Part shown: positions 17,041 through 53,013 of the stretch, one piece after another
How positions within the stretch are numbered: position 1 is the stretch's first letter
Layout of the letters: each line of letters begins with the position of its first letter
Source of the DNA: Hygrocybe punicea
Lineage: Eukaryota; Basidiomycota; Agaricomycetes; Agaricales; Hygrophoraceae
Direction: 5' to 3'
Assembly: GCA_963556145.1 (NCBI GenBank)
Contig: OY744463.1
Span: 434,001 to 498,000, forward strand
Length of the DNA stretch: 64,000 bases
Notes under the pieces: generated by a model
Told to the model about the DNA's origin: nothing
Seen by the model: only the letters and a program-made list of their open reading frames with translations
Databases searched by the model: none
Translations under genes and position numbers: made by a program

Positions 17041-20000
17041 CTACTTTTGGGTCTTTCGCCTTTTCCTCTTTGCTCCCCTGTTTGCTTTCCTGATTGGTGT
17101 TGTTGGAAGAGCCCAATCACTATCGATGGTTTCGGAATCAGAAGCACTAGACCAATGTCCGCCACTGAAATAAATTATTTAAATAAAGAATCGTGAAGGG
17201 AGAAGTGGGATGATCGAACCTTGCTGGCGAATTTCCACCGCTTGAAGGACTACTGAAATAAATTATTTAAATGAAGAATTGCGATTCTACTTTGCTCTTT
17301 TCTTGCCCTTACGTTTGTGCCCTTTTCTTGCCTTTGCGTTGAACATGAGTCCAATCATCGGCAGTCGAACTGGCAGTCACACTGCCTTGGGAATCAGTTG
17401 GGGATTGAGGGCTGAAATGAAAAATTAAATGAAAAATAATGAGGGGGAAGAAGCGGAACGGTCGAACGGAGTTCCCTCGTCACTAGACGAATGTGCGCTG
17501 AAATAAATTATTTAAATAAAGAATCGTGAAGGGAGAAGTGGGATGATCGAACCTTGCTAGCTCCAAATTTCCACCGCTTGAAGGACCACTGAAATAAATT
17601 ATTTAAATAAAGAATCGTGAAAGGAGACGTGGGATGGTCGAACCTTGGTGGGCGTCGTGGGCCAGTAGCGGGATCAGTGGGGTGGGAAGTAAAACTGGCT
17701 CCGGTAATAGAACTGGCTGGGGAAATAGAACTGGCTCCGGAATCAGTTGGGGACTGAGGACTGAAAAGAAAAATTAAAAGAAAAATAATGAGGAGGAGAA
17801 GCGGAACGGTCGAACGGAGTTCTCTCGTCAGGAGAAGTGGGGTGATCGAACCTTGCTCCATCACTTGAAGGACCACAGAAATAAATTAGTTAAATGAAGA
17901 ATCGTGAAAGGAGACGTGGGATGGTCGAACCGTGTTGACGTGACTGGGCGCTGAAAACCAGTACTAGTGCGATGACTAGTACAAATTAAATAAACAATCG
18001 GGAAATAAGTGAAGAATCACGCAGGTAATGGTTAGATGGTTGAACCTTCCACGGCCGCGGTAATCGGTAGTACCAACGTTGCGCCGAGTGCTGAAATGAT
18101 AAATTAAATGAAGTATCGTGAAAAGAGGAGTGGGACATTAGTGAAGGGTCGTGAAGGGAAAAGTAAGATGGCCGAACCCCCTAAAAAAATCATCCCTGGT
18201 GCTTGAAGGAGTACCATGAGTATTTGGCCCACTGGGGCGGCTGAAATAATAAATTAAATAATAAAATAAGTGAAGAATCACGCAGGGAAAGGTTAGATGG
18301 TTGAACCTCGCGGAATAGGTAGTAGTAGTAGTAGTGCCATCACCGTAGTTGAAAACGCGAGTGCTGAAATGATAAATTAAATGAAGTATCGTGAAAAGAG
18401 GAGTGGGACATTAGTGAAGGGTCGTGAAGGGAAAAGTAAGATGGCCGAACCCAAAAAAACCACCGGGGCTTGAAGGACCCCCTGTAGTACCATGAGTACT
18501 TGGCCCACTGGGGCGGCTGAAATAATAAATTAAATAATAAAATAAGTGAAGAATCACGCAGGGAATGGTTAGATGGTTGAACCTCGTGGAATAGGTAGTA
18601 GTAGTAGTACCATCACCGTAGTTGAAAACGCGAGGAGGAGTAGCACTGAAATGACACATTAGTGAAGGGTCGTGAAGGGAAAAGTAAGATTGCCGAACCC
18701 CCTAAAAAAAGCATCCCTGGTGCTTGAAGGACCCCCTGTAGTACCATGAGTATTTGGCCTGGTGTGGCTGAAATAATAAATTAAATAATAAAATAAGTGA
18801 AGAATCACGCAGGGAAAGGTTAGATGGTTGAACCTCTGGTAATAGGTATTACCAAGAACGTGGCTGTAAGTGTCACCAGGGCTGAAATGATAAATTAAAT
18901 GAAGTATCGTGAAAAGAGGAGTGGGACATTAGTGAAGGGTCGTGAAGGGAAAAGTAAGATGGCCGAACCCAAAAAAACCACCGGGGCTTGAAGGACCCCC
19001 TGTAGGATGAGCATTTGGCCCACTGGTGTGGCTGAAATAATAAATTAAATAATAAAATAAGTGAAGAATCACGCAGGGAATGGTTAGATGGTTGAATGGT
19101 GGATACCTTCTAAAATACTGATCACGATGAACCTCGTTGAAAGTGTCACCAGCGCTGAAATGATAAATTAAATGAAGTATCGTGAAAAGAGGAGTGGGAC
19201 ATTAGTGAAGGGTCGTGAAGGGAAAAGTAAGATGGCCGAACCCAAAAAAACCATCTCCTGGAGGACCTTGAGGACCTTGCCCACTGGTGTGCCTGAAATA
19301 ATAAATTAAATAATAAAATAAGTGAAGAATCACGCAGGGAAAGGTTAGATGGTTGAATGGTGGATACCTTCCACGATACGTATTGTTCTGATTATCAACA
19401 CTGTTGAATGTGCTACCGGTAGTGCTGAAATGATAAATTAAATGAAGTATCGTGAAAAGAGGACTGGGATGCACGGACTTTACATTAGTAGCACTGAAAT
19501 AACACATTAGTGAAGGGGTCGTGAAGGGAAGAGTAAGATGGTCGAACCCCCGAAAAAAACCGAGTGGAAGACTCTGTCGAGTATTTGGCCCACTGGTGTG
19601 GCTGAAATGAATTGGCCCACTGGTGTGGCTGAAATGAATAAAGCATCTTAAAGGGGAAAGTAATATGACTGAACGGATGACTATTCCAGGTTGGCCCTTC
19701 GACGGGGCTGAAACAATACATTAAACGAAGAATCTTGAAGGGGGAAGTGGTTGAATGGTGGATACCTTCCATACGTATTGTTCTGATCACCACGAACGTC
19801 GTTGAAAGTGGAAAAGCTAGCGCTGAAATGATAAATTAAACGAAGTATCGTGAAAAGAGGAGTGGGATGGACGGACTCTACATTATCAGCACTGAAATGA
19901 CACATTAGTGAAGGGTCGTGAAGGGAAAAGTAAGATGGCCGAACCCCTCAAAAAAACCACGTCTGATTAGGGGGTGATCCTGCCAGCCGCTGTAACGAAG

Positions 20001-20252
20001 AATAAAGCAAAGAGTCATGACTAAGAAGTTAAACGCAGTACTTATTGCTTCCACTTGGTGGTCTGGAACGAGAGACATTAGTAAAGAATCGTAACCTGAA
20101 AGCAAAATGCCATACCCGCCAAGTGCACCGGGGCCATGCTCTCTACGGAGCAGATTTGCTGGAGTTCCCACAGGAGTGAAAGGAAGTGGGGCAGCTCGTC
20201 CAGATACGGTCACAAGAAAGACGATGTAAGCGCCTAAAATTCGTCCACGCAT
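17041..20252 (-). CDS. Secreted low-complexity protein, 27-exon repeat gene
   Basis: No known family. Exons in transcript order: 20116-20252, 20042-20062, 19945-19989, 19877-19891, 19766-19822, 19675-19707, 19548-19628, 19479-19493, 19368-19424, 19242-19292, 19107-19154, 18969-19031, 18834-18881, 18699-18767, 18583-18645, 18451-18516, 18307-18363, 18178-18240, 18046-18090, 17931-17963, 17816-17863, 17644-17760, 17553-17588, 17468-17497, 17313-17411, 17220-17252, 17041-17164. They total 1554 nt (517 residues) with no in-frame stop, and every intron is in phase 2. The protein starts with a likely signal peptide (MRGRILGAYIVFLVTVSGRA), then a dibasic LLRRE, then alternating Gly/Ser/Thr/Pro/Asn-rich blocks. 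One block type ends in FFxG, the other carries FNxxxG and Tyr. The tail is basic (AKRKRRKTQK). Least certain are exons 7, 20, 21 and 25-27, where other splice sites also keep the frame. A cell-wall, matrix or effector role is speculation. Confidence 0.82.
17165..19944 (-). repeat. Array of near-identical introns and exon modules
   Basis: Read on the minus strand, the introns begin GTTCGRCCATC or GTTCAACCATC and end TTTATTTCAG, TTATTTCAG or TCATTTCAG. Classes: 87 nt (18091-18177, 18364-18450, 18882-18968, 19155-19241; all four read as identical), 66 nt (18241-18306, 18517-18582, 18768-18833; one variable site), 75 nt (19032-19106, 19293-19367), 51-54 nt (18646-18698, 19425-19478, 19494-19547, 19823-19876, 19892-19944) and 55-56 nt (17165-17219, 17412-17467, 17498-17552, 17589-17643, 17761-17815). 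Two of the last group (17165 and 17498) are identical. Confidence 0.9.
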
Positions 20253-24393: not shown

Positions 24394-25194
24394 CTCGGTC
24401 GTTGGACGGTACTTTTGGATGATTTTGTAAAGAAAAGGTGAGGGGAAGAGAAAAACGGGGCGAGGGCAAAGGAACAAGCAGGAACCTTACGAAATTTTAA
24501 TTTTCGGGAGCAAGCAATGGTAAATAAGCGCTCTACTCCGCCACTGAGACTGTCACGGTTGAAGGTGTTGATGCGTGTACCCACGTCTTCAAATAACGTT
24601 GCTTATCATGTCTGGCGGTGAGCGATGTGGCTATTTTTGAATATATTGACCCACTGCCTTGAGGCATCGTTATTCGCAACAAACCGCTGTGACCGCTGAC
24701 GATGGTACTTGTTTAGTCTGGCGCGATTTCTCCTAGCCCCTAAGATATACCACGTCTTCCCCACTGAATCCTCAGAGACGCTCGGTGTTCTGAATGTTTT
24801 TTTCCAGGCTTCAATGTCATTAGCATGGAAGAACAGACATTACCTCAGGCAAGAATTCCTAACTTACATCTCAACCGAGAAGCTATCATAATCCATCGAT
24901 ATTTCATGGAGCATGACGCGTGACGACTACTGGACGGACCGTCGTTGCAGCATTATGGTTCCTCCACCTTACAGCAAATGGTGTTCTTCAATCATTAACC
25001 TCGTCATGTATGTACGCTACGCATTTCCAAGAATCGTCCTGGAAGCCAATCTCCCTTGCTGAAACAACACAATATCAACGCGACAGAGGAACAACATGAA
25101 ATTGATAAAGAGTGAAATTTGTCAGTGCATTATACAGAAATGTGCTATCCAGTTGACTGCGATGCTTGATGTGACAGTACAAGATCCAATCACA
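24394..25194. other. Upstream region and unassigned sequence
   Basis: This covers the likely promoter of the KRE9-like gene and about 600 bp without a recognisable feature. An open segment at 24709-24891 shows no family motif. Confidence 0.35.
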
Positions 25195-25541
25195 CTTCAA
25201 CACTCAACACCGTCAACAACCTCGGGGTCCTCCACGCTCGTCAAGGCCGTCTCGATGATGCGGAGCTAATGTACAACCGGGCGCTGGCCGGAAAGGAGAA
25301 GGCACCGAATCACACTTCCACACTTCGCACCGTCAACAACCTCAGGATCCTGTACAAAATTCAAGGCCATCTCGAAGATGCAGAGCGAATGTACATCCGG
25401 GCGCTGGCTGGTTATGAGGAAGCATTGGGACCGAATCACACTTCCACACTTCGCACCGTCAACGACCTCGGGAACCTGTACAAAGATAAAGGCCGTCTCG
25501 AAGATGCACAGAGAATGTACAAACGGGCTCGAGGGTCTTAA
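25195..25541 (+). pseudogene. Tetratricopeptide-repeat fragment
   Basis: About three 42-residue TPR units of the kinesin-light-chain-like type are visible: GRLEDAQRMYKRA, GHLEDAERMYIRALAGYEEA and NHTSTLRTVNNL. The first unit lies in another frame. There is no start, effector or nucleotide-binding domain. It is a detached piece of the NLR-type gene family whose larger remnant lies at 25796-28690 on the opposite strand. Confidence 0.75.
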
Positions 25542-25795
25542 TACGCATCACCAATGTTGGGTTTCCTGCAATCAATCGAGGCCGCCTAGCAGAAGCAGAG
25601 GACATAACTACACCCTGTCGCCGCGCTATCTTATACACCAAAATGATCCTTGCTATTTAGAACTTTCGCATTCCGAGAATACTTTATTTGAATGATCACT
25701 TTAGTGGTGTATGAAGTTTGATTTTATTCACTCAGACTCAGAATTACATGTACTACTGTAGTATCGGAATTCCAAGCCGCTTTACTGCAACCTGG

Positions 25796-28690
25796 TTAAT
25801 GCAAGTCCTCGGTGACAAACGCCGATAATTGGGCCAGTCCCAATGCCTGCTCATAGCCGGCCAGCGCCCGGTTGCACATTCGTTCCGCATCTTCGAGACG
25901 GCCTTGATCTCCGTACAGTTGTTGACGGTGTTGAGTGTGGAAGTGTGATTCAGTCCTAATGCCTTCTAGTGCCCTGTTGAACATTCGTTCCGCATCTTCG
26001 AGACGGCCTTGATCAGCGTGGAGGAGCCCGAGGTTGTTGACGGTGCCGAGTGTGGAAGTGTGATTCTGTCCCAATGCCTGCTCATAACCGGCTAGCGCCC
26101 GGTTGTACATTCGCTCCGCATCTTCGAGACGGCCTTGATCTCTGTACAGGACCCCGAGGTTGTTGACGGTGCGAAGTGTGGAAGTGTGATTGGGGCCCAA
26201 TGCCTTCTCCGTTCCGGCCAGTGCCCGGTTGCACATCCGCTCTGCGTCTTCATAACGCCCACATTCAGCAGGGCCTCTTGACGAATTGTGTGGTCATTAT
26301 GCTGTGTAGAATCCCAGTAATGTTCTAAGTGCGATATTGCAGTGGCAAGAAATGTGGATTGCGAATCTTGGTCGCGAAGCCACTCCGACACCATTGAATG
26401 AAGCGATACGAGAATTTCATCATTGCGGCGCGAGAATCGAACCAGTGACATCTCCTGCATCTGCACGACGGCGTCTTCAAATTTCGAGTGATTCCAGTGG
26501 CCATCGTCGTGAAAAATAGACATCGGCGAGGCGACATCGGCGTAACCAATGAACAGTTTTTCGCTAATGCTGACAGGGTGGAAGAATGCAAAAAGTGTCA
26601 AAACATCCCCTAACTTGGCTGCGCGTCTTTCACCAACCTCAAGCAGCGGTAGTGACATTTCCCATGTAGTCAATAGACTGAGAGAAATCTCATTCTGCGT
26701 GTCAGGAAGCGTACGGCGATAAAGCCAGATGCGTGGCGTATCTTGCATGATGCTTCGCTTCCGTTCTTCCCACTCATCCACAAACTGTCTTAGACTGAGT
26801 GCTCGTCTTGAAATGTACGCTCGAGCTTGGTCGATGGCCAATGGGAGATATCCAAGTCATCAGAATCTTCTGTGCAAAAGCGAGTTCCTCGGTATCGGCC
26901 TCTAGAGAGCCAAGCAGAAGCTGTAGGCCCTCCTCCTCCGCCATACAATCAAGTTCGATCGGCTGACCGAGTTCCTTGGAACCAGCATGGCGACTGGTAA
27001 CCAGAATAGCGCCGCAGTGACCATCCGGGAAAAAAATTCATATCGTCTCATCAGCCATGACTCGCTCCAGCGCGAAAGAACATCCTTGACTAATGTGACC
27101 GCGGCATGAGGAATATCCAACGCTCGGTCCGGTAGCAGTCATTTGGCGATGACCTCCATCGAACTATAGAGTGCATTCCGAGAAGAAGCATCAAGCCAGA
27201 ATATTGCTCTAAATTTTCCTGAGTCCTGGCAATATTCAAAGCGCAAGTTGGCTCTTGCCTGCCCCGCCCATTCCAAGCAATATGACAATCAATTGAGAGG
27301 AAGTGGTAGTGGAATGTTCAAAGAACCTTTCGAGGCGACTAAGTAAAACCTTTCGTGCGACAAATTGGGGAACTTGCAGACGAGGGACATCATCAAAGGT
27401 CTATAATTATTGAGAATTTGTGTCAGATATTCCGTTGAGCAGGAGCGACCTTGCTGTGTAAAAGGCCTTCTGAACCACCTTTGCACAACAACGGAGGAAA
27501 ATGAACCTCATGAAACGCGGATAGTGCAAAATTCTCTGCATACCTTGGTCGACTGGAGATGACTCGTCCTCAATTCCGTCAAGCAACATCTCCATCGCAT
27601 ACAAAAGCTTTTTGTACCCAGGATCGCCTCTGGTTGAGAATTTCGCCATGCCAATGTGGTCGGCATAAATAGACTCGCGATTTTCACGGGCATCACCAAT
27701 GATCGCGGAATCCCCAGACACAACCTGATCAATCAATATCAGATATCCACTCAACTAGTTGGCATGAACGTGATATATATACCTTTCCTACACCTGTCAT
27801 AGCCAGCTCCTCTACAAAAGACCAGACTGCGAACGTGCGCTTATCCAAAAGGCGGCTGAAACTTTCCCTGATTCGGTCGAGGACTTGAGAATCCCTCTCA
27901 AGGTCTCGGACCAGATTCTCGTTCGCATTGTGCAAAGCCACGCTTGCAATTAAGGCTACCACCTTCGCTAGCGAAGTCATTCCGCTCCCTCTATGGGGGG
28001 TGCCCAGAAAAATTACGCCTCGTGTAGCGGGCAAGATGCGCCCGAGATGAGGTTTGGTACCCCGAACCTGGTGCGAATAATCAAGTGCCTGTCACAGTAA
28101 TCTGTTAGGGGGAACATTCATTCTGGGACGACACGAGTTTAAATGACACACATCTTTAACTAGTAGTCCACCAAGAGAGTGTGCAACAAAAATTATGGGG
28201 CGATCCCGCTAAATGGATAGAATTTGAACCATTCCCTTTAAGATAACACTAAACTCACGGCCTCCTGCCTCCTTTCTCGCGAGAGTTCATTTAACAGATT
28301 TAGGGAGTGGTCGAATAGAGTGCTCAGAGACGCGCGGCCCATAAATTTGACGACATTGGCGTCGTATCCAAACGTCAGGACACGGGTGTGAGATAAGGAC
28401 TCCTCCTTCGACAGAAGCTCCTCGGGCCAACATACGTCGTCCTTGGTCCAAGTCTTCCGACGATGGCCGCGTAATCCGTGCACAAATACGATGCTAGACT
28501 CAATAACTTCGGTGCCTTTTATGATGGGTCATTAGACTAGAACTCACTCGGCCACGATGGGAGCTATACCCTCGAAGAGAGTTTCACAGCCAACAGGATG
28601 AGAAGTCGTCGACATCAAGCTGGACGTGCTTTGAACTGCTGGTGCTTCAGACGGCTGCATCCATGTAAGAACCTTGAAAATTTTATCCAT
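25796..28690 (-). pseudogene. Alpha/beta-hydrolase-NB-ARC-TPR NLR pseudogene
   Basis: From right to left the domains are: an alpha/beta-hydrolase-like head (IVFVHGLRGHRRKTWTKDD, then the nucleophile motif VAHSLGG, then FLGTPHRGSG); a linker (RLQVPQFVARK); an NB-ARC core with P-loop GMGGAGKSQLAL; a winged-helix-like region; and TPR units (GRLEDAERMYNRALAGYEQA). This is the layout of fungal NLR-like proteins thought to sense non-self. The head is intact over five exons. The NB-ARC part is dead: an extra T breaks the frame after the P-loop, a TGA follows MEVIAK, and further frame changes occur near 27060 and 26850. The TPR units also shift frame. The start ATG is at 28690. The head is nearly duplicated in inverse orientation at 63017-64000. 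Confidence 0.85.
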
Positions 28691-48332: not shown

Positions 48333-51300
48333 TTATATACGCACTCCATTGGTGAGCAGCAGTTGGACAATTGCATCATGACCTCGGAGCGATGCCGCTT
48401 GCAGGGCGTTGCCATATTCTCCCCCTTGCGCATTGACATCTGCACCCTGTTCCAGCAGCAGTTGGACCACTGCATTGTGGCCTTTGACCGATGCCGCTTG
48501 CAGGGCGTTGCCATATTCTCCCCCTTGCGCATTGATGTCTGCACCCTGTTCCAGCAGCAGTTGCACCACTGCATAGTAGCCTCTGGACGATGCCGCTTGC
48601 AGGGCGTTGCCATATTCTCCCCCTTGCGCATTGATGTCTGCACCCTGTTCCAGCAGCAGTTGCACCACTGCATTGTGGCCTCTGGACGATGCCGCTTGCA
48701 GGGCGTTGTCATAATATCCCCCTTGCGCATTGACATCTGCACCCTGTTCCAGCAGCAGTTGGACCACTGCATTGTAGCCTTCGACCGATGCCGCTTGCAG
48801 GGCATTGCCATATTCTCCCCCTTGCGCATTGATGTCTGCACCCTGTTCCAGCAGCAGTTGCACCACTGCATTGTAGCCTTCGACCGATGCCGCTTGCAGG
48901 GCGTTGCCATATTGTCCCCCTTGCGCATTGATGTCTGCACCCTGTTCCAGCAGCAGTTGGACCACTGCATTGTGGCCTTTGACCGATGCCGCTTGCAGGG
49001 CGTTGCCATATTCTCCCCCTTGCGCATTGATGTCTGCACCCTGTTCCAGCAGCAGTTGCACCACTGCATAGTAGCCTCTGGACGATGCCGCTTGCAGGGC
49101 GTTGCCATATTCTCCCCCTTGCGCATTGATGTCTGCACCCTGTTCCAGCAGCAGTTGCACCACTGCATTGTGGCCTCTGGACGATGCCGCTTGCAGGGCG
49201 TTGTCATAATATCCCCCTTGCGCATTGACATCTGCACCCTGTTCCAGCAGCAGTTGGACCACTGCATTGTAGCCTTCGACCGATGCCGCTTGCAGGGCGT
49301 TGCCATATTGTCCCCCTTGCGCATTGATGTCTGCACCCTGTTCCAGCAGCAGTTGCACCACTGCATTGTAGCCTCTGGACGATGCCGCTTGCAGGGCGTT
49401 GCCATAATGTCCCCCTTGCGCATTGACATCTGCACCCTGTTCCAGCAGCAGTTGGACCACTGCATTGTAGCCTCCGAACGATGCTGCTTGCAGGGCGCTG
49501 CCATATTTTCCCCCTTGTGCATTGATGTCTGCACCTTTTTCCAGCAGCAGTTGCACCACTGCATAGTAGCCTCTGGACGATGCCGCTTGCAGGGCGTTGC
49601 CATATTCTCCCCCTTGCGCATTGATGTCTGCACCCTGTTCCAGCAGCAGTTGCACCACTGCATTGTGGCCTCCGAACGATGCCGCTTGCAGGGCGTTGCC
49701 ATACCATCCCCCTTGCGCATTGATGTCTGCACCCTGTTCCAGCAGCAGTTGGACCACTGCATTGTAGCCTCCGAACGATGCCGCTTGCAGGGCGTTACCA
49801 TACCATCCTCCTTGCGCATTGATGTCTGCACCCTGTTCCAGCAGCAGTTGGACGACTGCATGGTGGCCTTCGACCGATGCCGCTTGCAGGGCGTTGCCAT
49901 GAAATCGCCCTTGCGCATTGATGTCTGCACCCTGTTCCAGCAGCAGTTGGACGACTGCATGGTGGCCTTCGACCGATGCCGCTTGCAGGGCATTGCCATA
50001 TTCTCCCCCTTGCGCATTGATGTCTGCACCCTGTTCCAGCAGCAGTTGCACCACTGCATTGTGGCCTCTGTACGATGCCGCTTGCAGGGCGTTGCCATAA
50101 TATCCCCCTTGCGCATTGATGTCTGCACCCTGTTCCAGCAGCAGTTGGACGACTGCATGGTGGCCTTCGACCAATGCCGCTTGCAGGGCGTTGCCATACC
50201 ATCCCCCTTGCGCATTGATGTCTGCACCCTGTTCCAGCAGCAGTTGGACCACTGCATCGTGGCCTTTGACCGATGCCGCTTGCAGGGCGTTGCCATATTG
50301 TCCCCCTTGCGCATTGATGTCTGCACCCTGTTCCAGCAGCAGTTGCACCACTGCATTGTAGCCTCTGGACGATGCCGCTTGCAGGGCGTTGCCATAATGT
50401 CCCCCTTGCGCATTGACATCTGCACCCTGTTCCAGCAGCAGTTGGACCACTGCATTGTAGCCTCCGAACGATGCTGCTTGCAGGGCGCTGCCATATTTTC
50501 CCCCTTGTGCATTGATGTCTGCACCTTTTTCCAGCAGCAGTTTGACCATGGCATCGTGGCCTCCAGACGAAGACCCTCGCATTGTGTCGACATCCGATAT
50601 AAGGCAAAGTAGCCACTGTATTATTCCTTCCAGCCCGACGAACGATGCATAGTAAAGTGGCGAAGGAATATCAGAGGATGGATCATTCAAGTCTTCGTTC
50701 GAAAATTTATCCAGGTTGTAAAGTCGATTGCAGTTAATATATCTATAGCTGCAAGGATGAAAAAGGGACCTCATCAATTCTTGTAGAGTAGAATTGGAAT
50801 TGTGCTCAGATCGAGCATGTTGACTCCAATACTTGGCGGCGTAGCGGGCAAGTGGAAAACGTCCGATGGTACTCGAACTTAAGCAGTCATGTGTGTCAAA
50901 CTGCAGGAGGTAGGCCAGACATGCCTGAGCTATGAATGTATCCGCGGTTGTCTTGCTGAACCTGTATCGTGAAGCAACGCTGTTTCGAATGCGATCCGAT
51001 ATCAAATACTCTTTGACGGAGAAATGAGCCAGCCTGAGCAGTCGTCCTCGGCGGTCGTCCACCCACATGTTGCCGTCATCACCTTCGTCGTCTTGTTTGG
51101 TGCCTGAACTTATGGTCACCATACAAGAGCAGATGGTCAATATATCCTGCGGATCTGCCAGCCGTAGATCTGGGTCAAATCGGGGACTGCCCTTAAGATC
51201 GACAGCGACAACTTCCGCAACTTCTTCCACCGTTACCGGACGTGCAGAGAATGCAAGCAGCTGTAGCACTTTGAAAGCATCTTCACTGTAATCGTCATCA

Positions 51301-53013
51301 ATGTTCAAGAGGATTCGTTCGTAAGTCTCGTCCAGGGTCTTCGGCAAAGACTTCAGAGCTTTCCGAAGTTGGTCGAGCTTTAGGCACTTTCGTAATACGT
51401 CCAATTGGCAGACAACCCATCGGAACCTGGAGAAACATGTCAGTGTCAATGTTCGAACGGCGTAAACCGAGATCACTTTACATCCCACATGCCCCCTCCA
51501 TGAGTGCTGTCTCGATCTCCTCATGTACCTTGCTTGGCCATCTTCGCAGTTTAGGATCATTTTGAAGCCGTTCTCGAACATGAATTCGAATGTCGTCGTC
51601 GACAATCACACTCTGGATATCAATTTGGCATGAAACGTGAGGCTTGAGAGCATCCTCGATGTCTCGCTCCTTTCGGCTGGTCACGAGTAGGTGAAGTTTG
51701 CCCAGCCTCCAATCAACAATTTTTTCAATCAAGCACATAAGCTCGTCTCGCTCGTTGCATTCGTCCAGGGCGTCAAGAATGATATAAGAATGCTGAAAGC
51801 AGTCGAGAAGAGCTTTAAGGGTCATAACAAGGCTGTCTGAAGTGGGCTGCCGTTCCCCATTGTGATATTGAGAATACAGTGACAGCAAGGCTTCGGGAGA
51901 GGTCATGCGTTGAGAACAGAGCTGTGTAATCAGTGATCGGAGGAGATTGTCACATCGCTGTTTCTCTTTGTCGTTGAAATCGAAGTAGAAATAGGCAATC
52001 GCTCGCGATGGATCCAACCGGCAATGGCACAAGACATCCTCGACGATGGTTGAGCTATACAGATAATAGTCAGCGTCCAGTTACGAACGATCGTGCCATT
52101 AAGCTGCTTGCTTCAGAATAGTTTTCCCACACCCCGCTGTCATTATCAGTCAGGTCGATGAGAGCCGCACCATTTATGAGAGGACTAACGAATGCCGTGA
52201 AGCCAGATGAACGCATTCGGAGTGTCTTTCCACTCCTTAAATTGTTCCCCTCCTATGAACCATATTCCGGTCCCTGGCTGTCGCTTCTGGCAGGAAATGT
52301 TATGGTTGGAAGAAGGGTCGGGTGCTGCAAGCCATCGATAGATCTTTTGGCGACGTTCATCTGCAATGGGATTGAGTTTCTTATGTTCAGATGAGGAGAC
52401 ATCCACGATGTCATACATGCCTAGGTTGGTCGACTCCAGTGACTGTCCCAAGGATACAACGCTATCTTGCATTGCCATCATCACCGTTCTGAAGAAACCA
52501 CTGTAACAGAACTCCTCTCAAGAACCTATGCTTACTCACGTCTGATCTGCAGTCAATGCGAGATTCAATGACACCTTCGTCCTCTCTAGGCTATCAAGAG
52601 TCTTCTTCACATCGCCTTCCTTGAGTGGCCAAGTTAGTGCTTTTCCGATGGCCTTCCATCCGCTTGCAGGCTCCAATCTCATCTTGAGGTTGGCAAGTTC
52701 GGCCTTACACTTGTCAAGCTGTCCGTTCGGTCGAATAAGTAGTTCCAGTGTCGCCAGCTGTGCCTTTGCATTTTGGGTCTCTGCGAGTTTGACGAGGCGA
52801 TCGAGGACATCACGGAGGCTAATCAGCTCGTCTGTGATCTTCAAGAGATCCTTGGGGGCATTCTTTACCCTAGTTCGATAGTCGTAACATATCGAAATAA
52901 TTGCTCCGGCGAGTTGAACCACGCCGATAATGCTGGCTGGGGGTTGACAAGGATAAGTAGTATTCCTGATGATCGCAGAATGGTAACCTGCCTGTCATGC
53001 TGAGTGGATCCAT
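48333..53013 (-). CDS. NACHT-ankyrin NLR-like protein
   Basis: Six exons (52988-53013, 52540-52932, 52190-52488, 52112-52136, 51482-52054, 48333-51426) total 4410 nt, 1469 residues. The N-terminal domain (MDPLSMTGSIIGVVQLAGAI, then TDELISLRDVLDRLV) is of the helical type common in fungal NLRs. The NACHT core follows: WLHGIPGCGKTIL (P-loop), a likely Walker B YIILDALDEC, and LLVTSRKE (sensor region). Then come a winged-helix stretch and about 23 ankyrin repeats of 33 residues (unit like NAVVQLLLEQGADINAQGG). Such proteins are held to detect non-self and trigger cell death. The P-loop is split onto a 25-nt exon whose 3' intron has a GC donor. The gene is intact and in frame. The long open frames on the other strand of the ankyrin part are artefacts of the 99-bp period. 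Confidence 0.93.
48360..50590 (-). repeat. 99-bp ankyrin-coding tandem array
   Basis: About 23 copies of a 99-bp unit lie in the last exon of the NLR gene. Most copies differ at only a few sites, clustered at the same three or four codons. A block of about ten units seems to recur: the series around 50520-50270 (KYGSALQAASFGG, HYGNALQAASSRG, QYGNALQAAS) reappears around 49530-49270. This suggests homogenisation and segmental duplication. Confidence 0.9.

Follow-up and report, generated by a model that had tools for sequence, protein, structure and literature searches.

A 27-exon predicted gene of Hygrocybe punicea with near-identical introns and diverging exons

Introduction

How can the introns of a single gene become nearly identical to one another while the exons between them differ? 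This question is raised by a 3.2-kb locus on the minus strand of a window of Hygrocybe punicea DNA, the window being the whole stretch of 64,000 nucleotides that was analysed (contig OY744463.1, positions 434,001 to 498,000). An earlier note, made from the letters alone, had read the locus as a gene built from duplicated exon-intron modules. The origin of new spliceosomal introns is described as still debated in the available text of PMC3443670.

Results

Gene structure

From an ATG at 20252 to a stop ending at 17041, one frame passes through 27 predicted exons (Table 1), the splice model being built from the repeat alignment, the reading frame and the match to a motif described below. All 26 introns of the model lie in phase 2 and the lengths of all 25 internal exons (12-117 nt) are divisible by three, with intron lengths spread over all three mod-3 classes. 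As the borders are in phase 2 throughout, the reading frame survives the gain, loss or skipping of any internal exon. The minus-strand frame, its phase-2 introns and its exons in multiples of three could be reconstructed as the earlier note had given them, and its four identical 87-nt and two identical 55-nt introns proved exact. Its length of 517 codons was not reproduced, our model giving the nearby value of 513 codons, or 509 if GT-AG borders are imposed on 26 of 26 introns; of its range of 15-117 nt for internal exons the upper bound stands, and the lower falls to the 12 nt of exon 21 in the GT-AG model. The size limit of micro-exons is 36 nt, and eight of the 25 internal exons are of this size or smaller while 17 are larger. 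A period of 273 bp (4.8 copies) is detected within the gene by TRF. YTRAY-like branch sites are found in 20 of the 26 introns, 14-19 nt from the 3' border, as a raw count. The usual donor consensus is GTRNGT, although the donors of this genome may differ from it; the donors GTTCGG and GTCCGT, present in predicted introns, deviate from this consensus, which counts against the explanation favoured below.

Table 1. Positions of the predicted gene and its parts within the window.
Feature	Position	Strand	Basis
Whole predicted coding region, 27 exons and 26 introns, 509-513 codons	17041..20252	-	repeat alignment, frame, motif match
4 x 21-bp repeat 5' of the start codon	20498..20581	-	TRF
Exon 1, hydrophobic signal-peptide-like leader, RR at residues 36-37	20116..20252	-	hydropathy; RR by eye
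Motif copy 1, FFE / GADNV / DASFSTFNDVRGDQNNTYG, exons 3-5 with introns 3 and 4, cut twice (slashes) 15 nt apart	19766..19989	-	42.2 bits
Motif copy 2, exons 7-9, cut at the same two places	19368..19628	-	12.2 bits
Motif copy 3, exons 10-11, shortened, mini-exon lost by intron fusion	19107..19292	-	6.6 bits
Alternating units exon B / 87-nt (once 53-nt) intron / exon A / 66-75-nt intron, exons 10-19	18046..19292	-	TRF period 273
Intron 10, 87 nt, identical to introns 12, 16 and 18	19155..19241	-	
Intron 12, 87 nt, identical copy	18882..18968	-	
Intron 16, 87 nt, identical copy	18364..18450	-	
Intron 18, 87 nt, identical copy	18091..18177	-	
Two identical 66-nt introns	18833-18768, 18306-18241	-	
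Intron 20, usual acceptor lost (TTTCTG; sister introns TTTCAG)	17864..17930	-	sequence; 509-codon model takes next AG
Exon 21, 12 nt with next AG as acceptor of intron 20	17863..17852	-	
Intron 21, 91 nt, second fusion, remnant of an exon-24-like exon inside	17761..17851	-	
Two identical 55-nt introns	17552-17498, 17219-17165	-	
Intron 25, copy of the gene end including TAG and following bases, then 3' half of a repeat intron; GTAAGG donor	17253..17312	-	
Exon 27, terminal, basic tail	17041..17164	-	

Intron families and common descent

Two near-identical intron types alternate in the central part of the gene, introns 10, 12, 16 and 18 (87 nt) and introns 9, 11, 13, 15 and 17 (66/75 nt), the latter with 0-2 differences per 66-75 sites; intron 14, of 53 nt, is the exception in this series. 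Kinship was assessed by aligning each intron to eleven of the gene's introns, with itself and its exact copies excluded, and comparing the outcome with 300 shuffles of the same intron. Better alignments than with any of their own 300 shuffles were obtained for 25 of the 26 introns (z 3.4 for intron 1 and 4.2-11.2 for introns 3-26), the exception being intron 2, whose z of 1.9 was reached by 11 of 300 shuffles, while 60 control GT..AG segments from the window gave a z of at most 2.2. Introns 3-26 are thus clearly of single-founder descent, and intron 1 probably derives from the same founder.

No relatives of the gene or its introns were found elsewhere in the 92-Mb genome with the whole gene, one 87-nt intron or a 35-nt pattern in which three mismatches at most were allowed as query, in a search that skips very common words, and at the sensitivity used the gene is single-copy in the assembly. 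Introner-like elements in the published sense were rejected as a source, as in these searches the related introns match their own locus only. RNA structure found no support as a cause of the intron identity: fold z ranged from -0.7 to 1.7 among the six introns that were folded, and exact antiparallel matches between introns are at most 12 nt long, e.g. within intron 26. Nor is a second haplotype seen, one 3-kb stretch of the window being likewise single-copy, and the assembly looks haploid or collapsed.

Intron fusions and a copied gene end

The 87-nt intron is composed of the first 43 nt of intron 3 (43/43) and the last 45 nt of the intron-4/-8 type (44/45; 1-base overlap). Compared to the 122 nt of intron 3, exon 4 and intron 4 together, it lacks 35 nt, and these had contained a 15-nt mini-exon with both its splice sites. 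A similar composition is seen in intron 21, which matches intron 23 at 20 of 21 positions, then the end of exon 24 at 14 of 15, and continues with a 55-nt intron-24-like part (three differences). Two fusion events would accordingly have taken out exons, and fusion is presumably the direction of change. Intron 25 aligns to the gene end with a score of 65, the best of 500 shuffles reaching 46. Its GTAAGG donor would excise the copied stop with phase 2 kept, while retention of the intron would terminate the protein there. Phase 2 is kept by both fusions and by the intron over the copied stop, which counts for the explanation that we favour.

Divergence of exons and introns

Exons 11 and 13 are each preceded by an identical 87-nt intron. 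They differ at 16 of 48 sites against 2 of 153 in the introns before and after them (Fisher p 1.3e-9), and at about 3 of 10 silent sites (p 0.0016 against the same 2/153), while in exons 12, 14, 16 and 18, 10 of 72 columns are variable, again against 2/153 (p 2.6e-4), all these p-values being optimistic since the copies are related by descent and hence not independent. The variable columns of exons 12, 14, 16 and 18 fall on codon positions 1, 2 and 3 in the numbers 6, 3 and 1; nine of the ten certainly change an amino acid, and the remaining one falls within a codon whose amino acid changes. Among these four exons pN exceeds pS in all six pairs, in one of them by a small margin. For the whole set of B exons pS is at least equal to pN in 5 of 15 pairs, all five involving exon 7; the same holds for 7 of 21 pairs of A exons, which have no overall excess of amino-acid change. 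Exons 15 and 17 are close to each other.

The claim that exons vary more than introns therefore holds for the central units (exons 11/13 and 12/14/16/18), though not for every pair, exons 15/17 being the exception. Duplication of exon-intron modules, also proposed earlier, is supported by the recurrence of related introns with their neighbouring exons, and homogenisation of the introns by their identity or near-identity next to silent exon sites that are more diverged. Diversifying selection fares less evenly: nearly all changes in exons 12/14/16/18 are non-silent, but the A exons have also diverged at silent sites, more so than the introns. As the sole cause it is ruled out by the silent-site divergence of exons 11/13 above that of the introns; homogenisation of the introns is required too. 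We conclude, from this comparison of sites, that the introns appear to be homogenised and the exons to be diverging. Selection for change is likely in the B exons and may or may not act on the A exons.

A motif shared with other loci of the genome

The exons encode copies of a motif of about 26 residues, GFFxGAxNVxxxxSTFNxVxxDQNNTYG, which decay along the chain, and the same motif occurs at 15 other loci of the genome, near an in-frame Met. A search of the same genome at the protein level yielded weak matches outside the locus (E 0.0045, 0.37, 0.37 and 0.76), three of which share the start M-x-F-F-x-x-A-x-x-V-x-A-x-x-[SG]-T-F-N-x-V-x-G-D-Q; the fourth (C35:1521926, E 0.755) is without the motif and was dropped. 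Two more searches, with peptides from two of the matched loci, enlarged the set to 15 loci. A profile was made from 14 of the 15, with the gene in the window excluded and with L043, L051 (second, different repeat) and L048 (near-copy of L047) left out. This profile matches residues 65-90 of the spliced product at 42.2 bits (i-E 2.2e-12 among 1004 sequences), a value with a mild circularity, as three of the 14 members and both query peptides were first found via the product of the window gene and the profile is not wholly independent of it. Further matches lie at residues 127-153 (12.2 bits) and 175-184 (6.6 bits). Without splicing, 23.2 bits is the highest value among the three frames, and 1000 shuffles yield at most 5.7 bits, so that copies after the second are as single matches not above chance (6.6 against 5.7 bits). 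Splicing across introns 3 and 4 restores the motif (42.2 against 23.2 bits), which supports the splice model. These two introns are homologous and cut the motif 15 nt apart with its length unchanged, while at the other loci the motif is uninterrupted in 15 of 15 cases, a count obtained by a six-frame search, in which uninterrupted copies are more easily found. Inspection by eye of introns 3, 4, 7 and 8 revealed no target-site duplication.

NLR-type domains were found by Pfam at four of eight motif loci scanned, the other four being without a domain: NPHP3_N at L049, L050 and L056, NACHT above the cut-off at L056, and NB-ARC at L057. The scan covered eight of the 15 loci, with frames picked by length and by eye, and at L049, L050 and L056 the domain frames are separate frames downstream of the motif. 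A 70-residue motif peptide used as query in the protein search gave no candidate, and a literature search with the motif strings gave no matching paper. The letters of the motif may be those of a published motif group, NLR05/08/22/29/44, which we take as a lead; the study of basidiomycete NLR N-terminal motifs is reportedly that of Wojciechowski and co-workers. PMC9815663, in its available text, describes short motifs at the N-termini of NLRs, this group being largely basidiomycete-specific and likely of a beta-arch fold, and proposes that such short N-termini form amyloid-like signalling folds. Like the motifs of this group, that of Hygrocybe is short, lies at predicted N-termini and precedes NACHT/NB-ARC-type domains at the four loci given above; in contrast, the window gene carries several copies, behind a signal-peptide-like leader and without a nucleotide-binding domain. 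Motif-bearing exons, with decaying copies, are new here in such a gene.

Some motif loci have features of their own. The motif proteins L041/L042 (G000:C40) and L044/L043 (G000:C35) share a second conserved stretch, GDTFNGPIYGSNVGGRGNTN, L041 and L042 lying about 2.9 kb apart on C40. At L052 (G000:C3:7103844-7103963) a motif-like N-terminus precedes, in a different frame, a long hydrophobic segment and a region rich in threonine, membrane-protein-like in appearance.

The predicted product

The 11-residue Kyte-Doolittle mean of the product has its maximum of 2.47 at residues 5-15 and stays at or below 0.61 from residue 31 on. An N-terminus of this hydrophobicity fits the signal peptide read earlier, the dibasic site (RR, read by eye) is present as well, and the product is probably exported. 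From residue 26 on it consists to 52% of G, S, T and P; it has no cysteine and ends in a basic tail. No Pfam family was found for it, NACHT and NB-ARC included, nor for two of the motif proteins. A protein search with the spliced product, as the earlier note had proposed, gave no match at E <=1 among the 8000 candidates with most shared words that were scored; as a 27-exon gene is seldom predicted whole, this null result is weak evidence of absence. Fungal proteins are included in the collection searched: a control with a dehydrogenase frame of the window gave 2169 matches, 120 of them listed, and the first listed match to bear an organism name (row 56) is from Piloderma croceum (77% identity over 61% of the query). 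Taken together with the motif and the NLR content, this would point to a basidiomycete.

Other repeats in the window

Further repeats occur in the same window. An NLR-type gene at 48336-52080 on the minus strand combines NPHP3_N (51481-52080) with a long ankyrin-repeat frame, a 99-bp unit being present in 22.3 copies, the 91% matches among which indicate a recent expansion. A 126-bp TPR-like unit forms two oppositely oriented arrays within 25188-26856, one at 25188-25528 and one at 25966-26251, of which the latter lies in a frame that has a sub-threshold match to DUF7779, and at 490-1045 a 150-bp repeat (3.7 copies) is contained in an open frame without a Pfam match.

Discussion

Comparison with known systems

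As far as the published texts were available, MaSp2 of Argiope is the nearest published architecture, and the SSSGP genes of the Hessian fly show the nearest evolutionary pattern. In MaSp2 two near-identical intron types alternate, as they do here, in a unit of two exons and two introns; the authors, who also cite a flagelliform spidroin, state in the available text that they know of no further eukaryotic gene whose introns alternate and are homogenised (PMC9779670). However, the coding units of MaSp2 are homogenised too (average identity 93.5% in the MaSp2.2 paralogues; PMC9779670), whereas the exons here diverge (16/48 in exons 11/13), the organism is another and silk motifs are absent. No fungal case of such alternating homogenised introns was found among the literature matches listed. 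The SSSGP genes encode small secreted proteins with conserved introns and flanks and a variable mature coding part, one family having about 35 introns in about 950 coding bases (PMC2955719, available text). The conserved introns and the variable coding part are alike in both systems, so that this pattern is not unprecedented, but the comparison is there between genes of a family and here between modules of one gene.

Other systems share single traits. The bicycle genes of aphids have many small exons, nearly all in phase 2, and secreted products, yet form a large insect family with CYC motifs (PMC9168663, available text), while the present gene, with 26 of 26 introns in phase 2 and exons of 12-117 nt, lacks both cysteine and CYC. 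Small symmetrical exons and secreted products also characterise the schistosome MEGs; all internal exons are symmetrical here as well, but most (17/25) exceed 36 nt, and the near-identical introns present here are not described in the available text of PMC4350168. Introner-like elements place many near-identical spliceosomal introns in a fungal genome, across many unrelated genes (PMC4457414, available text); the predicted introns here are likewise identical in three groups, but copies were found in this one gene only. The SP7 effector, with one conserved intron before its repeats (PMC11333574, available text), was set aside as a different build.

Competing explanations

In our view, held with moderate confidence and based on sequence comparison, the locus is probably a real spliced protein-coding gene that has grown by intragenic exon-intron duplication, with introns homogenised and exons diverging, and that encodes a probably exported repeat-built protein. 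The array with its 273-bp period could also be read as an unspliced non-coding satellite, but such an array is absent elsewhere in the genome at the searches made, the motif match depends on splicing and the frame is kept throughout, which makes this reading extremely improbable. A formerly functional repeat gene that decays as a pseudogene, its constraint gone, would account for the lost acceptor of intron 20, the fused introns and the fading motif copies. Nevertheless, a single frame still runs through 27 exons, the indels in exons come in threes, the copied stop sits inside an intron with a good donor, and all but one of the ten variable columns in exons 12/14/16/18 change an amino acid with certainty; we regard such decay as quite improbable.

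The small symmetric exons, the hydrophobic leader, the basic tail and the exon variation above that of the introns also recall a micro-exon effector, i.e. a gene which, like schistosome MEGs or aphid bicycle genes, produces many secreted variants by skipping frame-neutral exons and targets another organism. This appears unlikely, as just 8 of 25 internal exons are within 36 nt, no alternative transcripts are known, the product is without cysteine and hence without a CYC motif, and the gene is single-copy in the assembly at the sensitivity used. Finally, intron copies may have been inserted into the coding sequence of the same gene, by reverse splicing or similar, alongside module duplication. 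Insertion is the simplest reading of the twice-cut motif, with the homologous introns 3 and 4 lying 15 nt apart in a motif of unchanged length that is uninterrupted at all 15 other loci. Yet the six-frame search is biased to uninterrupted copies, target-site duplications were not seen by eye at introns 3, 4, 7 and 8, and duplication followed or accompanied by deletion could imitate the pattern; gene-confined insertion is for us rather unlikely.

A proposed mechanism

For the favoured explanation, that of a duplicating spliced gene, the following course may be envisaged. Unequal crossing-over and gene conversion between introns would keep the introns alike and let modules come and go, with the exons free, or selected, to differ. 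With phase-2 borders each internal exon would be a frame-neutral cassette, and the near-identical introns would offer many sites for unequal exchange, so that copying or losing modules would carry little risk. Motifs strung between flexible linkers would make up the product, which would be exported and either self-sticking or binding a partner. The most likely mechanism, though doubtful taken by itself, is that this exported protein is multivalent, its motif copies attaching to one another or to a partner by beta-rich contacts; module turnover, and perhaps exon skipping, would tune how many copies there are and what sequence they have. It would be a rather long shot that the founder intron spread only inside its own gene, partly by insertion into uninterrupted coding sequence (by reverse splicing into its own transcript or similar), and that the resulting lattice of identical introns now acts as a recombination scaffold which diversifies exons with an immune-receptor-type motif in an exported protein.

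Significance

The 3.2-kb gene holds two dozen related introns together with intermediates, i.e. intact introns, introns fused over a lost exon and one containing a copied stop. These intermediates make the gain, fusion and loss of introns readable step by step, and testable in strains. Among the literature matches listed, and going by their available text, the gene is the first from a fungus to parallel spider silk in its alternating homogenised introns, while its exons have gone the opposite way. In addition, a motif found ahead of NLR domains at other loci here follows a likely export signal and would thereby be put to a new use.
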